From Bacteroidia bacterium (GTDB lineage Bacteria; Bacteroidota; Bacteroidia; UKL13-3), in the NCBI GenBank assembly GCA_023151275.1, contig JAKLJI010000015.1:1-64000 (forward strand): a DNA stretch of 64,000 nucleotides. Reading direction: 5' to 3'. The notes under the pieces are model-generated. The model was not told the origin of the DNA and ran no database searches. It worked only from the letters and a program-made list of their open reading frames with translations. Shown here piece after piece: positions 78 to 63,697 of the stretch (position 1 is the first letter of the stretch; every line of letters begins with the position of its first letter). The position numbers were made by a program, and so were the translations under genes.

Positions 78-117
78 TGGACTTGGATTTGATAAGAGCC
101 AATTCAGGTGAATTACC

Positions 118-46181: not shown

Positions 46182-46254
46182 GCGAGAGTAGCTCAGTTGG
46201 TAGAGCATCACCTTGCCAAGGTGAGGGTCGCGGGTTCGAGTCTCGTCTCTCGCT
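46182..46254 (+). tRNA. tRNA-Gly (anticodon GCC)
   Basis: Cloverleaf: acceptor GCGAGAG (46182-46188) with CTCTCGC (46247-46253). The anticodon stem TCACC/GGTGA encloses TTGCCAA, with anticodon GCC at 46215-46217. The T arm is GCGGG-TTCGAGT-CTCGT. The CCA end is not encoded. Confidence 0.96.
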
Positions 46255-46266
46255 CAACCAAAATCA

Positions 46267-46297
46267 AAGTTATGGTGATTGCCATAACTTTTTTTTT
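46267..46297 (+). terminator. Terminator between the two tRNA genes
   Basis: AAGTTATGG (46267-46275) pairs with CCATAACTT (46282-46290), a perfect 9-bp stem, followed by a run of at least eight T. Confidence 0.8.
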
Positions 46298-46317
46298 GGA
46301 AACCTTTCCTCAGAAAG

Positions 46318-46402
46318 GCCCGGATGGTGGAATTGGTAGACACGCAGGACTTAAAATCCTGTATCCTTTAAAGATGTGCGGGTTCAAGTCCCGCTCCGGG
46401 TA
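46318..46402 (+). tRNA. tRNA-Leu (anticodon TAA)
   Basis: A class II tRNA with a long variable arm. Acceptor GCCCGGA (46318-46324) pairs with TCCGGGT (46395-46401, one G-T pair). The anticodon stem CAGGA/TCCTG encloses CTTAAAA, with anticodon TAA at 46352-46354. The T arm GCGGG-TTCAAGT-CCCGC is perfect. No separate promoter is evident after the preceding terminator. Confidence 0.95.
46378..46402 (+). mobile_element. Probable phage attachment site (tRNA-Leu 3' end)
   Basis: The T arm and acceptor end of tRNA-Leu lie directly upstream of a tyrosine recombinase and a run of phage genes. This is the usual place for att recombination. The exact core cannot be defined because the partner copy lies outside the window. 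Confidence 0.55.
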
Positions 46403-46411
46403 CACACAGAA

Positions 46412-58878: not shown

Positions 58879-59616
58879 TTAATTCCTGTCTATCAATAAT
58901 GATAAAAAGAACTGCTGGCCGCTTGAGGGAGTAAATGCATCCAATGTTTGGATGATTGCCCAAAGCCTGGTTTCTCCGGAGGCCAGTTTGAATGGAAGGC
59001 GCAGGTCTGCTACTAATGAATGCGTTGCGTCACTTCCAGCTCCTGCTGTTGCCAATGCCGGGAAATCGATATAGCCAATTCGGTTTGCTCTGTTTGCCCA
59101 TAAAAGAGGAAATGCGGAATTGTCATTTACCTGTGATGGAGCAGATTTATAAAGGTGAACACGTATGCGTGGAGTAATGTCAGACTTATTACTGATAAGC
59201 CTTGCTTTAACTAAATAGCCACTTCCGCCAGCTTCCAGTCCAGCTATAGCCAAATCAAAAATAATTGCAACCGGTGCTGAGGTTGATGATGAAATTGCAT
59301 CATTTGCCGAATAAGCAGTTGTATCAGCAGGGCGTGTGATTGTTACTTCAACCGGCTCGCCCATTTTGCCACCAACTTGCACAGCATTGGCCTTCCACAA
59401 GAGCAATTGTGTTTTTACCTTGGCAATTGTGTCGTAGGTGGAAATATCTGCCACGTTTATTGCTACTTCTCTATTTTCAAAGACAAAGCGAACCTGCGCG
59501 GCTTCTTTGTCAAGGATAACAAGCCCGCTATTCAACGGGAATTCAAAATCAGGAATAGAGCTTAGTGAGTCTTCTATTCTAAGAATATTACCAACAAGGC
59601 TTAAGGTTTTGGCCAT
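58879..59616 (-). CDS. Phage structural protein, unknown
   Basis: A 245-residue beta-rich protein. EVTITRPADTTAYSANDAIS and RIRVHLYKSAPSQVNDNSAF resemble a family of small phage structural proteins of unknown role. It begins one base after the LamG-like gene's upstream neighbour and shares the operon. Confidence 0.6.
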   Translation of the reverse strand: MAKTLSLVGNILRIEDSLSSIPDFEFPLNSGLVILDKEAAQVRFVFENREVAINVADISTYDTIAKVKTQLLLWKANAVQVGGKMGEPVEVTITRPADTTAYSANDAISSSTSAPVAIIFDLAIAGLEAGGSGYLVKARLISNKSDITPRIRVHLYKSAPSQVNDNSAFPLLWANRANRIGYIDFPALATAGAGSDATHSLVADLRLPFKLASGETRLWAIIQTLDAFTPSSGQQFFLSLLIDRN

Positions 59617-59646: not shown

Positions 59647-60129
59647 TTACCGCATTGCGTACCTAAAGGACAGAAAGGCAATGAATCCAAGCCCGATAAG
59701 CAGCCAGATCCACCATTTGATTCCTGTGCTTTCTGATTGTTTATCAAGTGTTTTTATTCGTTGATTATTGCTCTTTTTTATGCTTGTGGAGGTTTTTACC
59801 CGGGTTTCCTGCTCAACTTTTACCTGAACATCTTTTGTTTTTGAAATTGCTTTAATCTTCCTTTTACTGGAAGATCCTTTTGCAATCACAATTTTTACTC
59901 CGGCAGATTCAAGTACTTGCTCTGCCGTATCAGCAACATCAAAACATCCTTCTATTGAATCAGCTTTTATCACAATAGTTGAATCAAGCTTAGTTTTGAT
60001 TATTACCTCAGAAATACTTGTACTATCCAGTTTCGCCGCTGTTTCAACATTTATTTTGCTTGTTGTTTTTGTTGTTCCGCAACTGCTTACTAACGCAACC
60101 AGGACAATCATCGAAATTATTTTTCGCAT
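59647..60129 (-). CDS. Single-molecule spanin-like lipoprotein (internal start)
   Basis: From an in-frame ATG at 60129, a 160-residue protein begins with a complete lipoprotein signal (MRKIISMIVLVALVSSC, lipobox Cys at residue 17). About 120 mostly polar residues follow, and it ends with a membrane helix (WWIWLLIGLGFIAFLSF) and a few basic residues. An outer-membrane lipid anchor plus a C-terminal inner-membrane helix is the architecture of unimolecular spanins (phage T1 gp11 type). Those fuse the two membranes after endolysin action. It is directly downstream of holin and amidase. The same frame continues upstream, so the start needs testing. Confidence 0.6.
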   Translation of the reverse strand: MRKIISMIVLVALVSSCGTTKTTSKINVETAAKLDSTSISEVIIKTKLDSTIVIKADSIEGCFDVADTAEQVLESAGVKIVIAKGSSSKRKIKAISKTKDVQVKVEQETRVKTSTSIKKSNNQRIKTLDKQSESTGIKWWIWLLIGLGFIAFLSFRYAMR

Positions 60130-60474
60130 GAAGGTCCAGGTAATATCAAATGTTGCGGATGCTATCCACCATCCAATGAAAGAATAAATTAGGTAGGAAA
60201 GGGCAGGAACTCCCTGATAGTAGCTCATGCCGGCACCAATTAAAGAAACAAGTAGTCGCTTGAAAAAGTGACCGCCATCACGAGGGAAAGTTCTTTCCAT
60301 AAATGAAATCTTCCCATCTCCATTTCTGTCTTTGGCAGATTCAAAAAGCTCTTTTGTCCACCATTTACCCCAATTCCTGAATAGGTTTAAGATTACAATT
60401 CCTTCAAAAAAGAAAAAGCAAAGGCCAATTCCAACCAGGAATAGACCTTTAATAAGTAGTTCAATATGGGTCAT
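59647..60474 (-). CDS. 275-residue ORF: multi-pass membrane part fused in frame to the spanin-like part
   Basis: The full frame has about 115 residues before the internal start: hydrophobic segments at residues about 7-30, 73-105 and a perfect EF-hand loop at 49-60 (D-R-N-G-D-G-K-I-S-F-M-E). The upstream part alone could be a holin-like or antiholin-like membrane protein. If translated whole, the internal lipobox would not be at the N-terminus and could not be processed. Either two overlapping in-frame genes share a stop or a fusion has occurred. It overlaps the amidase stop by 14 bases. Confidence 0.6.
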   Translation of the reverse strand: MTHIELLIKGLFLVGIGLCFFFFEGIVILNLFRNWGKWWTKELFESAKDRNGDGKISFMERTFPRDGGHFFKRLLVSLIGAGMSYYQGVPALSYLIYSFIGWWIASATFDITWTFMRKIISMIVLVALVSSCGTTKTTSKINVETAAKLDSTSISEVIIKTKLDSTIVIKADSIEGCFDVADTAEQVLESAGVKIVIAKGSSSKRKIKAISKTKDVQVKVEQETRVKTSTSIKKSNNQRIKTLDKQSESTGIKWWIWLLIGLGFIAFLSFRYAMR

Positions 60475-61012
60475 TTCCGTTGCTTGCTTCTGCTAGTAAC
60501 AATGCCAATTCAATAGCAATTTCTTTTTTCGATTTCTGGTATTTAGCCATGTCATCCTTATTGGAAATGAAGCACACTTCAATAAGCAAATTGGTACCAG
60601 GCTCGTGCAGAATTCCTATTCTTCCTCTTGCTGATTGATCTTCAGAGCGAACACCGCGCGATGGCAACATGGTAATGCCAGAAATTCTTGAGCAAATAGC
60701 TGATGCCAATACTCTTTCTTTGTGAGTTGACCGGGTTGGGACAAATACTTCAACTCCGGAGGCCTTTGGTGGGCCTGAATTAAAATGTAAATCGCATACA
60801 ATGCAGGTTTCTGAACTATCGATTTCTTTTAGCACTTCTGGCAACCGCTTGGTGTCATCGTCAATCCAAATTGGGTAATTCAGTAAGTTGAGCTGTCTGG
60901 CAATCATATCGCGAAGCTCCACGGTTAAATCCGCTTCCTTATATCCATTCGCAACAGCTCCAGGATCAGGATTTGGGCCCTTAGGATTATGGCCTGCAAT
61001 AAGGTAAATCAT
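60461..61012 (-). CDS. N-acetylmuramoyl-L-alanine amidase (phage endolysin)
   Basis: A 183-residue Amidase_3 enzyme without signal peptide or binding domain. Zinc ligands and catalysis: His in IAGHNPKGPN, Glu in GYKEADLTVEL, His in VCDLHFNSGPP and the catalytic Glu in NLLIEVCFISNKDDM. It cuts the amide between muramic acid and the stem peptide. It overlaps the holin stop by four bases and precedes the spanin-like gene, forming a lysis cassette. Confidence 0.92.
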   Translation of the reverse strand: MIYLIAGHNPKGPNPDPGAVANGYKEADLTVELRDMIARQLNLLNYPIWIDDDTKRLPEVLKEIDSSETCIVCDLHFNSGPPKASGVEVFVPTRSTHKERVLASAICSRISGITMLPSRGVRSEDQSARGRIGILHEPGTNLLIEVCFISNKDDMAKYQKSKKEIAIELALLLAEASNGNDPY

Positions 61013-61449
61013 GGCTGCAAGTCTTGAGTTTTACCTGATTCGTCAAATGATTTCAATTTTGCCAAAATCCAATTGGGTAGTAACCCAGGGCGAATCACTC
61101 CAAGATTTTCAATAATGGAAATTGCCTCTCTAACCATTATTGCTGCGTAGAACAGGTTATCAACCCAGCTAAATAATCCATTTACGGCACCGGCAACGGT
61201 AAAGTTTTTCAATCCGTGGGTAAGAATAAGAAAGACAGCATAAACAATCACCTTCTGAAAAAATGCAGCAAAGCCTTTAGAGCTAACTGAATTCTGCGTC
61301 CAATGTTTCCAAAATCCGGTTGCAGTATCAATGCCAATTAATACCATCAGGAATACCAAGAATTGCCAATCAGAAAATAGGTACTTTTCAAAAAGATGAA
61401 GAATGAAGCTACCTGTTACGGTAAGGAATAAATAAATTTTGTATTGCAT
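61009..61449 (-). CDS. Phage holin (holin_4 type)
   Basis: A 146-residue inner-membrane protein with three hydrophobic segments (residues about 28-46, 68-84 and 88-108) and the motif VLIGIDTATGFWKHW characteristic of phage_holin_4. The basic C-terminal tail is cytoplasmic. It would open the inner membrane for endolysin release. Confidence 0.88.
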   Translation of the reverse strand: MQYKIYLFLTVTGSFILHLFEKYLFSDWQFLVFLMVLIGIDTATGFWKHWTQNSVSSKGFAAFFQKVIVYAVFLILTHGLKNFTVAGAVNGLFSWVDNLFYAAIMVREAISIIENLGVIRPGLLPNWILAKLKSFDESGKTQDLQP

Positions 61450-61451
61450 AA

Positions 61452-62393
61452 TTAAAGGATAAAAGATGAGCCTGTAGAATTGTCAATAACCTCAGTTGTA
61501 TCGGTAATCAAACCAAGTTCAATGCATTTGGCTTTGAGCTGGTAGTAATAAGCAGATCCAGTTTGCTGGCATCTGGAAGCCATTTCGCGCTTCATGTCCA
61601 TGGATGCCATGCTTTTAATTTTAGCTTTTTCAGAACTAGCGGAAACGGATGTCACTCTAACACCATCATCGCTGAAGGTAAATTCCATCTTAAATAGTGC
61701 TTGCTCTATTGCCAAATTTGCTGCAGTGGCATAAATCAATGGAGCAATTTGATACATATTTGAATCTGCATCAGGAGTTAAATTTCCTACCTTCCTTGCG
61801 TCTAAAAATGTTGAATAGTTATCTCTAAGCAGAGGTTTAATCTTTAAATTAAGCACATCAAGTATGCACCCTTTCAAAGCTTCCAATGTTCTTCTTGAAC
61901 TAGAAATAGGGAAGTATGCATCAAAGGCATAGGCAGATAGGAATAAGTTATTCCAGTATGCTGTTTCATGGTCACTTTCGCGCCAAGGTTCAAATTCCTC
62001 TGAATTTGATGAAAGCAAAATCAATGCATCATCTATTGCCCTCCATCCTGACTCTAGCAACTCGTTTTCAAGTTCAATTTTTTGCCATTCATAAAGGGGT
62101 TTTTTGGCATTATTGTCAGCTTGTAAAGCTCCACTACCTGTTAGGGTAACAAGCAATTTTGGAAGTGCTTTTGTTAAAGCAAAATTTCCGGATGCAGCCT
62201 GAATGTAACCGATTAGCTCTAAGTCTAAATCTTTCGGATCAGACAAACCATCCAGATAATCCAGTAAGTTTTTTCCAAACAAATTTTTAAGGAAAGTGCC
62301 TTCAATAGTAGCTGCATAATTGGATATCTGTGAGAATTTAAAGCTGGAAGATATCTGGGCGATTTTTTGGAAAGCCTGTTCTGTTAAAATCAT
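61452..62393 (-). CDS. Phage protein, DUF6712-like
   Basis: A 313-residue helical protein (LTEQAFQKIAQISSSFKFSQ, SSRRTLEALKGCILDVLNLK, MASRCQQTGSAYYYQLKAKC). I recall similar Bacteroidota phage proteins placed next to portals; a head-tail connector role is a guess. It starts with a four-base overlap of the portal-like stop and is followed directly by the holin. Confidence 0.6.
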   Translation of the reverse strand: MILTEQAFQKIAQISSSFKFSQISNYAATIEGTFLKNLFGKNLLDYLDGLSDPKDLDLELIGYIQAASGNFALTKALPKLLVTLTGSGALQADNNAKKPLYEWQKIELENELLESGWRAIDDALILLSSNSEEFEPWRESDHETAYWNNLFLSAYAFDAYFPISSSRRTLEALKGCILDVLNLKIKPLLRDNYSTFLDARKVGNLTPDADSNMYQIAPLIYATAANLAIEQALFKMEFTFSDDGVRVTSVSASSEKAKIKSMASMDMKREMASRCQQTGSAYYYQLKAKCIELGLITDTTEVIDNSTGSSFIL

Positions 62394-63697
62394 TGCTTGC
62401 TGGTTTTGTCTTGTGAATTACCATGTTGAATTTCCGGAGCATCATTTACTACCCATTTGAATCCAGGATATTTTTTGCGCCAATTGTTGAACTGGGCAAC
62501 AAAAAAGAATGGAGTTAAGGTGTTCATCCTATCCACACCAATGGTTGCAGTATTGTTGTAGAATGCATTCTTTTTCTCAGAACCTGAATTCATTCCATCG
62601 CTCTGATTGCTGATGCCGATGTTTGAAGGATCAACGCCCATTGCCAAAAAACTTTGTGCCTGCAATTGCTGGATGGTAGGAAGCCATCCTTCCACATTTA
62701 AACTGGTGTCTAGCTTTTTGATCGTTACTCCAGGCACATATTCATAGCCCGTTTTCAATTGCTCTTTAAACAGCATGCTGATTACTGTTTTTCCTTGATT
62801 TGAGCTTCCGGAAAGGAAACTATCTACCTCAGCTTTCAATGTTTTCAGGGTGCGGATTCGCAAATCAAGGTCAGAAGCCCATTTTGTTTTATCCTCTGCG
62901 CTTAATCTGCTTTGAAGGTATGTTTCTGTTACCTCAATGGAGAAGGTGGCGCCAAGGCCATTTTTTAGCCTGGATTTGTGGAATGCTTTCACCATATCTC
63001 GCATTTCGAATGTTCCGCTATTGATTAGCACTTCCACATTTGCTAGATCATAGTAATAGCGCTTTGCAGCAATTGGTTTCATCCGGTAAGCAAACTCAAA
63101 TCCTGAATTCCTGCCCCTCAAATCATCCACAGGGAATAAAACATCCAAAGCAGGAATTTCAACTGTATCGGATGCCCTGTAGGATTCCCAATCGCTATTG
63201 TAATACAGCGTTTTTACTTTTCTGGAAGCAGGATCCTGTTTCCCCCAACGGCTCCAATCAGCTTGTTTACGCAAAAGCAAGGCAACTTTTTCCCGATTGC
63301 GAGACAAAACAACTGAAGAAATAATGTTGCCCAGAGATTCGTAATCTTCCACGAATTCTGCAAATGTTCGTTGGGCGTTGGATGCTTCCATCCAATCATC
63401 AATTTCTGGGATAGAGGTAAAGTCAAATTCAACACCATCCTTTTTTCGTATTTCCCGCAAATAGCTAAGCCCTTGACCAAAGTGGGCGGCTTTGTTAAAC
63501 TCATTCGACCTGAAAACAACCTCATCACGGCCAATTTCTTGGATTATTCTGGATGGCAATAAATTATCATCACCCCAGTAAACAAAATTATCTGACGCAT
63601 TGGAGTGCTCAATTTTCACATCCTTGCTTACCGGTACAGAATCACCTCCAGACTTTCCGGAAATGCCAATAATGCTTATTCCTTCTGCAATAACCAT
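62390..63697 (-). CDS. Phage portal-like protein
   Basis: A 435-residue protein with segments expected of portal proteins: YWGDDNLLPSRIIQEIGRDE, FNKAAHFGQGLSYLREIRK, DDLRGRNSGFEFAYRMKPIA (wing/stem region) and the late AMGVDPSNIGISNQSDGMNS followed by KKNAFYNN. Portals form the ring through which DNA enters the head. It is shorter than many portals, and the assignment rests on motif order. It shares a base with the stop of the next gene upstream. Confidence 0.72.
   Translation of the reverse strand: MVIAEGISIIGISGKSGGDSVPVSKDVKIEHSNASDNFVYWGDDNLLPSRIIQEIGRDEVVFRSNEFNKAAHFGQGLSYLREIRKKDGVEFDFTSIPEIDDWMEASNAQRTFAEFVEDYESLGNIISSVVLSRNREKVALLLRKQADWSRWGKQDPASRKVKTLYYNSDWESYRASDTVEIPALDVLFPVDDLRGRNSGFEFAYRMKPIAAKRYYYDLANVEVLINSGTFEMRDMVKAFHKSRLKNGLGATFSIEVTETYLQSRLSAEDKTKWASDLDLRIRTLKTLKAEVDSFLSGSSNQGKTVISMLFKEQLKTGYEYVPGVTIKKLDTSLNVEGWLPTIQQLQAQSFLAMGVDPSNIGISNQSDGMNSGSEKKNAFYNNTATIGVDRMNTLTPFFFVAQFNNWRKKYPGFKWVVNDAPEIQHGNSQDKTSKQ

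Follow-up and report, generated by a model that had tools for sequence, protein, structure and literature searches.

Spanins complete the lysis of Gram-negative hosts. In the Rz/Rz1 pair of phage lambda the inner gene is read in a different frame. The start of this spanin lipoprotein lies embedded, or nested, inside another ORF, as set out in the part of PMC6139136 available to us, and the same part presents unimolecular spanins (u-spanins) such as T1 gp11, in which a lipoprotein signal and a C-terminal membrane helix stand in one polypeptide, and notes that mechanistic details of u-spanins are lacking. Published u-spanins include those of Cellulophaga phages, of Flavobacterium phages 11b and FCL-2 and of Riemerella phage RAP44 (PMC6139136, available part), and the available part of PMC8776804 names two further ones in North Sea Cellulophaga phages; Bacteroidota hosts of published u-spanin phages were seen in six records. 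Both u-spanins in Bacteroidota phages and the nesting of spanin genes in other frames are already known. For phi12:1, 11b and RAP44 the u-spanin ORF was read at the expected place and for FCL-2 a candidate was taken from a motif scan, which also gave three candidates for the published u-spanin of phi10:1 and, over the first 30 kb of phi13:2, none that resembled a u-spanin. The family phrog_5885, labelled as unknown function, matches phi12:1 gp64, 11b gp49 and FCL-2; RAP44 was not matched. A RAP44-like, u-spanin-like lipoprotein with a C-terminal helix was also noted in another genome (L073, G077:C1:2246280-2246744).

The direct precedent for a u-spanin behind a Phage_holin_4_1 holin and an Amidase_3 endolysin is Cellulophaga phage phi12:1. 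We compared these systems with a locus in the window, by which we mean the whole stretch of 64,000 nt analysed here (contig JAKLJI010000015.1 of a Bacteroidia bacterium). As in the window, phi12:1 gp64 and its kin follow these two genes and are lipoproteins with the lipobox context SCGTxK, a Lys/Thr-rich middle and a C-terminal helix. In contrast to the window, gp64 is a separate gene with 2 codons open upstream, carries no EF-hand module and has its Cys in the lipobox only (L034).

A 275-codon frame in a phage lysis cassette

The original prediction described a single-molecule spanin nested in frame inside a larger membrane ORF and left the strand unnamed. Translation established the minus strand, on which the 275-codon ORF ends in a single terminal stop with none internal, while the plus strand of the same interval has stops throughout; 6 more codons are open 5' of the ATG. 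Translation and hydropathy recovered there the predicted frame with its ATG at 60129, the lipobox (VSSC) and the helix at the C-terminus, and the loop expected at residues 49-60 is indeed canonical (Table 1). Hydropathy shows one strong N-terminal segment (about 4-32), weak ones at 74-92 and 89-107 (both ≤1.3), a signal segment, best at 111-129, and a C-terminal segment at 249-275. Both structure models are poor, with mean pLDDT values of 54 and 53.

Table 1. Features of the lysis region in the window
Feature	Position	Strand	Basis
275-codon ORF, EF-hand membrane module joined in frame to u-spanin-type lipoprotein	59647..60474	-	single open frame
Module 1, residues 1-115, membrane protein with EF-hand loop	60130..60474	-	relatives L002/L004, L003/L005
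Predicted membrane helix 1, residues about 4-32	60379..60465	-	hydropathy; helix in low-confidence structure model
EF-hand loop DRNGDGKISFME, residues 49-60	60295..60330	-	translation; relatives
Module 2, residues 116-275, u-spanin-type lipoprotein, readable also from ATG 60129	59647..60129	-	profile A8
ATG of Met116, possible second start	60127..60129	-	start-context score not distinctive
Lipobox VSSC, residues 129-132, predicted lipidation at Cys132	60079..60090	-	sequence; LPAM_1 below cut-off
Predicted periplasmic region, residues 133-249, with one more Cys (Cys177)	59728..60078	-	sequence; low-confidence model
C-terminal membrane helix, residues about 250-271	59662..59727	-	hydropathy; low-confidence structure model
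Endolysin, Amidase_3	60461..61012	-	PF01520 E 1.1e-19; phrog_435 endolysin
Holin, Phage_holin_4_1	61009..61449	-	PF05105 E 3.9e-13
Upstream phage genes, DUF6712 protein and portal protein	61452..63697	-	DUF6712 domain; portal tblastn

As had been claimed, the ORF directly follows Phage_holin_4_1 and Amidase_3 genes, overlapping the amidase by 14 nt, and it thereby lies where a unimolecular spanin is expected, beside the holin and endolysin of a lysis cassette. By tblastn the portal matches 5 phage records, among them Polaribacter phage Leef_1, and 3 of the five are annotated as portal protein. The portal gene (62390-63697) has a counterpart in the viral contig L002/L004 at 50% identity and the gene after the cassette (58879-59616) one at 32%; since the lysis genes stand later in the gene order of L002/L004, the cassette appears to travel as one block. 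A pair of tRNA genes (tRNA-Gly and tRNA-Leu, 46182-46403) slightly left of the run of phage genes is a possible integration site. A relative with 60% portal identity, L010, has an amidase and two overlapping small ORFs in place of the EF-hand/spanin ORF, and the EF-hand module was not found anywhere in its record. After the amidase (L010:14732-15281) stands a 105-residue ORF with an N-terminal helix, which is overlapped out of frame by a second ORF with a signal-like start and a C-terminal helix.

The combination of lipobox and C-terminal helix is not rare, for in the window the motif scan picked up two spurious ORFs as well, one of them with 119 codons open upstream; the case made below therefore rests on homology and location and not on motifs. 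The whole 275-residue protein has no full-length relative in the viral contigs, phages or 97 related genomes searched: as a query it found only the N-terminal relative in the viral contigs, chance matches in the phages, and one N-terminal match besides itself in the 97 genomes. Names from Pfam and NCBIfam were all under their cut-offs (e.g. DUF4407, E 0.012) and were set aside, as was a fumarase-type model with E 0.0005 but 20 bits against a cut-off of 145. The weak lead phrog_8801 (E 0.0027) was likewise dropped, as at E≤1 it also matches 14 other places in the window genome and gives matches in 11 of 14 control genomes. A search of solved structures returned SAKe6DEtal (E 0.0005), whose match lies outside the EF loop, EF-hands of the troponin type with E values from 0.3 upwards and one ribosomal protein (E 0.76), none of which was retained.

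Relatives of the two halves

Residues 17-89 share 40% identity over 73 residues with a protein of the IMG/VR contig 3300032245_001733 (L002/L004), and module 1 shares 32% with a protein of the Bacteroidia MAG contig JAIOYZ010000015.1 (L005, the same place as L003). When residues 1-62 were compared with L003, none of 1000 shuffles reached the real score, whereas for residues 63-131 and the relative 18% of shuffles did so; the end of the module has no significant similarity to the relative in its actual frame, and alignment does not decide the frame near the junction. On these comparisons, the EF-hand half is genuine coding sequence and not a product of chance. Met1 is aligned in all three sequences of the module, and K48, D49, N51, D53, G54, K55, I56 and E60 are invariant in all three, as are W39, E42, P64, D66 and H69. 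Residues 49-60 follow the 12-residue EF-hand pattern D-x-N-x-D-G-x-I-x-x-x-E, a predicted calcium site, as a single loop without a pair that stays below the gathering score of the Pfam EF-hand model (16.1 vs 25.9 bits).

In both relatives, as in the window, the EF-hand module lies near an endolysin. In contrast to the window, L005 encodes it as a gene of its own, 140 codons long and closed by a stop, at a distance of two small ORFs from a GH108 endolysin, and the L004 copy, after a GH19-like endolysin, breaks off after 90 residues, where the contig ends. Of the two small ORFs in L005, one with 193 residues and an N-terminal helix might be an i-spanin. No further member of the module was found, whether the module, its relatives, an alignment or a DNA pattern served as query: none among the scored candidates (best ≤11 per genome) of 395 genomes of the class, none by alignment or DNA pattern in the viral contigs and none in the phages, and 64 genomes of the order returned only the genome of L003 again. 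With 3 loci in all, the module is rare as judged by these searches, and our best guess is that it acts as a calcium-responsive membrane partner of lysis proteins. EF-hand-like loops were also noticed inside an Amidase_2 endolysin (DLDKDGIIESFE, L010:14277-14735) and in an ORF near a u-spanin (DKNHDGHIDDAD, L052/L053), and among the lysis proteins of phages of this kind, calcium sites may be common.

The second half begins with Met116 at the ATG of 60129 and opens with MRKIISMIVLVALVSSC. Its VSSC (residues 129-132) conforms to the consensus [LVI][ASTVI][GAS]C that the available part of PMC6139136 gives for lipoboxes; the lipoprotein signal is N-terminal when read from Met116 and internal in the 275-residue form. 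Hydropathy and motif scan give one C-terminal membrane helix and none between it and the lipobox. Compared by description, T1 gp11 resembles module 2 in joining a lipoprotein signal and a C-terminal membrane helix in one polypeptide, and for the beta-rich region of the T1 gp11 type the model shows four short strands and one helix, with pLDDT <50 over most of the region. Unlike our ORF, the T1 gp11 family lacks a periplasmic Cys, and the available part of PMC6139136 describes no upstream in-frame module for it. None of the 58 u-spanins published there has a periplasmic Cys, a descriptive and not a defining trait from which Cys177 departs; such a Cys also occurs in 5 of 24 viral-contig relatives (L049, L050, L056-L058). 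Residues +2 to +6 after Cys132 read GTTKT, without an acidic residue. As acidic residues after the Cys form the surface-export signal of Bacteroidota lipoproteins (PMC5080379, available part), module 2 would be expected to be a periplasm-facing outer-membrane lipoprotein, as a spanin requires.

By BLAST, residues 116-275 had no match in the phages or viral contigs and only unrelated ones (E 5 or worse) in the plasmids. A scan of the viral contigs with the four phage u-spanins yielded 27 loci. From known or related u-spanins we built profile A8, with 17 non-redundant members and the window left out, namely 14 from viral contigs (one identical with phi12:1, one the spanin part of L039) together with 11b, RAP44 and FCL-2. 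A8 matches the window genome with 33.7 bits (E 7.7e-8) over positions 1-149 of 155, starting exactly at Met116; this is the only significant match in that genome, the next reaching 13.8 bits and thus lying about 20 bits lower. Among the scored candidates (best ≤9 per genome) of 395 genomes of the phylum the ORF ranks second, behind one at 35.3 bits. No shuffle of the mature part out of 500 reached the real score, and with the signal and C-terminal helix kept and the core alone shuffled 3 of 500 did so; much of the match hence comes from the signal and terminal helix, and a modest part from the core. The model phrog_5885 does not match the window genome even at E 1, and hhalign against four u-spanins aligned only the first 25 residues. 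The predicted u-spanin nature of residues 116-275 gains support from A8 as well as from the cassette position.

In-frame joining and its alternatives

Of the 27 viral u-spanin loci, 25 are ordinary short genes with 17-54 open codons between the preceding stop and the lipobox end, and the other two (L038, L039) have 189. In the window 121 codons are open upstream of the spanin, and in four other u-spanin-like genes noted among the 30 loci of the phylum search 14, 6, 4 and 4 (L061, L063, L088, L073). A separate search for homologues of each half had been suggested, and we found module 1 alone in one complete case and module 2 alone in many. The original prediction would have been abandoned if homologues always formed one 275-residue protein with no conserved lipobox Cys; the relatives of the halves occur apart, each existing without the other half, and the junction coincides with the spanin's own start and signal peptide. 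Like lambda Rz1, the spanin begins inside another ORF. Unlike an embedded two-component spanin, it starts in the same frame, and the C-terminal helix makes it a single molecule. Since no stop closes the EF-hand part, every ribosome that makes it continues into the spanin and the default product would be the 275-residue chain. What was called a nested gene is, on the sequence, better read as a fusion: the ORF probably joins two neighbouring lysis-cassette genes of a Bacteroidota prophage, one for an EF-hand membrane protein and one for a u-spanin. The earlier idea of a lysis arrangement new to these phages is thereby narrowed, as the cassette order has its precedent in phi12:1 and the in-frame joining alone is new. 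The available parts of the open-licence articles (PMC6139136, PMC8776804, PMC9636201, PMC10367356, PMC5080379) contain no description that we could find of a u-spanin fused in frame to another lysis-cassette protein, and no report of spanin fusions or internal lipoprotein signals was found in the available parts of the open-licence literature.

A natural in-frame fusion of a complete phage lysozyme and a u-spanin is present at L039:2491-3441 (+) and also in L038, L096 and L097. L038 and L039 (IMG/VR contigs 3300006037_000185 and 3300025896_000178) are identical over the 4801 bases compared and represent one phage, perhaps one sample. After a Phage_holin_4_1 holin, the chain carries a Phage_lysozyme domain at 13-141 followed by a phrog_5885 spanin at 148-287. 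As in the window, the u-spanin is in frame with the preceding lysis-cassette gene and its signal peptide is internal; unlike the window, the partner is a soluble lysozyme and not a membrane protein, and no ATG, GTG or TTG occurs from the lysozyme's start to the lipobox, so that this spanin could be released only through processing or from an unusual start. Among 72 loci found with the lysozyme-spanin chain, 37 have a separate u-spanin-like ORF adjoining the lysozyme, overlapping it by 4 nt in 29 cases; 32 have none by the rules used, 1 runs off the contig end and 2 are fused (the same phage again). Junction DNA of eight loci fits a small deletion across the 4-nt overlap, which would have removed stop and start together. 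As far as the sequences compared tell, this fusion is independent of the EF-hand-spanin fusion, so that in-frame joining has, on present sequences, arisen at least twice with different partners. The lysozyme-u-spanin fusion is arguably a cleaner test case than the ORF of the window.

The evidence for the window fusion comes from one assembly of the locus, and the same frame could also have resulted from two ordinary overlapping genes, the EF-hand gene stopping near 60119-60150 and the spanin starting at 60129, that were joined by an assembly indel or by prophage decay. Overlap is the usual arrangement of the separate genes beside the lysozyme relatives, stops in the other two frames lie nearby at 60119 and 60148, a run of five A at 60124 stands just after the ATG, and the dissimilar end of the EF-hand module would agree with a shifted frame. 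We nevertheless regard such a joining as unlikely, given that no homopolymer ≥6 occurs near the junction, that the genome is 98.3% complete with 0.62% contamination, that the adjoining ORFs look unbroken in an unsystematic check, and that a second in-frame fusion exists in the phage of L038/L039. Still less probable, in our judgement, is that the spanin is made only from ATG 60129, the EF-hand part being a separate regulator and the run-through form a functionless by-product. The canonical ATG has been retained here, unlike in L038/L039, and a good signal-peptide start (MRKII...) falls exactly at A8 model position 1, but without a stop before Met116 run-through is unavoidable and the start context of Met116 scores -0.56, where 72 gene starts have a median of 0.91 and 424 internal in-frame ATGs one of -1.94.

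Internal lipoprotein signals are unusual, and this rarity speaks for a chain that remains an uncut inner-membrane protein and is no spanin at all; a low-confidence model with one continuous helix over residues 90-130 points the same way. Against it stand the near-full-length A8 match from Met116, the canonical lipobox and the place in the lysis cassette, and we consider an uncut chain the most improbable of these alternatives. The fusion of an EF-hand membrane protein with a u-spanin remains our preferred reading.

Possible release of the spanin and its meaning for lysis

The alternative of two products or a fusion posed in the original prediction leans to the fusion; two products gain nothing from the start context of Met116, which is undistinguished, lying at the 69th percentile of the internal ATGs and the 32nd of the gene starts. 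Met1 itself lies only at the 38th percentile of internal ATGs, and Met122 has a better context than Met116. The start-context test favours neither an internal start nor processing of the full chain, and we hold the two about equally probable. An Arg-Lys pair precedes the signal helix and an Arg stands in the C-terminal tail, and the region of the EF loop has a net charge of +4. This pattern would suit, weakly, a chain that starts N-out, keeps the EF-hand loop inside and exposes the lipobox to the periplasm; the support is weak because the same loop carries -2 in L004 and +1 in L005.

Under the fusion reading the 275-residue chain would thread the inner membrane, with residues 116-131 as an in-to-out signal helix placing the lipobox on the periplasmic side. 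Lipidation and a signal peptidase II cut before Cys132 would then yield a 131-residue membrane protein and a mature lipoprotein of residues 132-275, and a second start at Met116 would give the identical mature lipoprotein. Its lipid would hold this lipoprotein in the outer membrane and its C-terminal helix would hold it in the inner one, and after the action of holin and amidase the spanin would join the two membranes, as proposed for u-spanins. That signal peptidase can cut a bacterial precursor whose signal is internal is known from cytochrome bc1 (FbcH) of Bradyrhizobium. A wider and tentative proposal, which we rate as rather unlikely, is that Bacteroidota phages make lysis polyproteins, in which an upstream lysis protein and a u-spanin form one chain that is split by host signal peptidase II at the internal lipoprotein signal, so fixing ratio and timing; here the spanin could be triggered or licensed by calcium loading of the EF-hand, either upon holin opening or from the periplasm.

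If the in-frame joining of u-spanins is true, it would imply either an internal lipoprotein signal that is processed within a longer chain or an unusual internal start. The parts list of phage lysis would gain a rare membrane protein that is predicted to hold a calcium site, and a spanin could hide inside a longer ORF.
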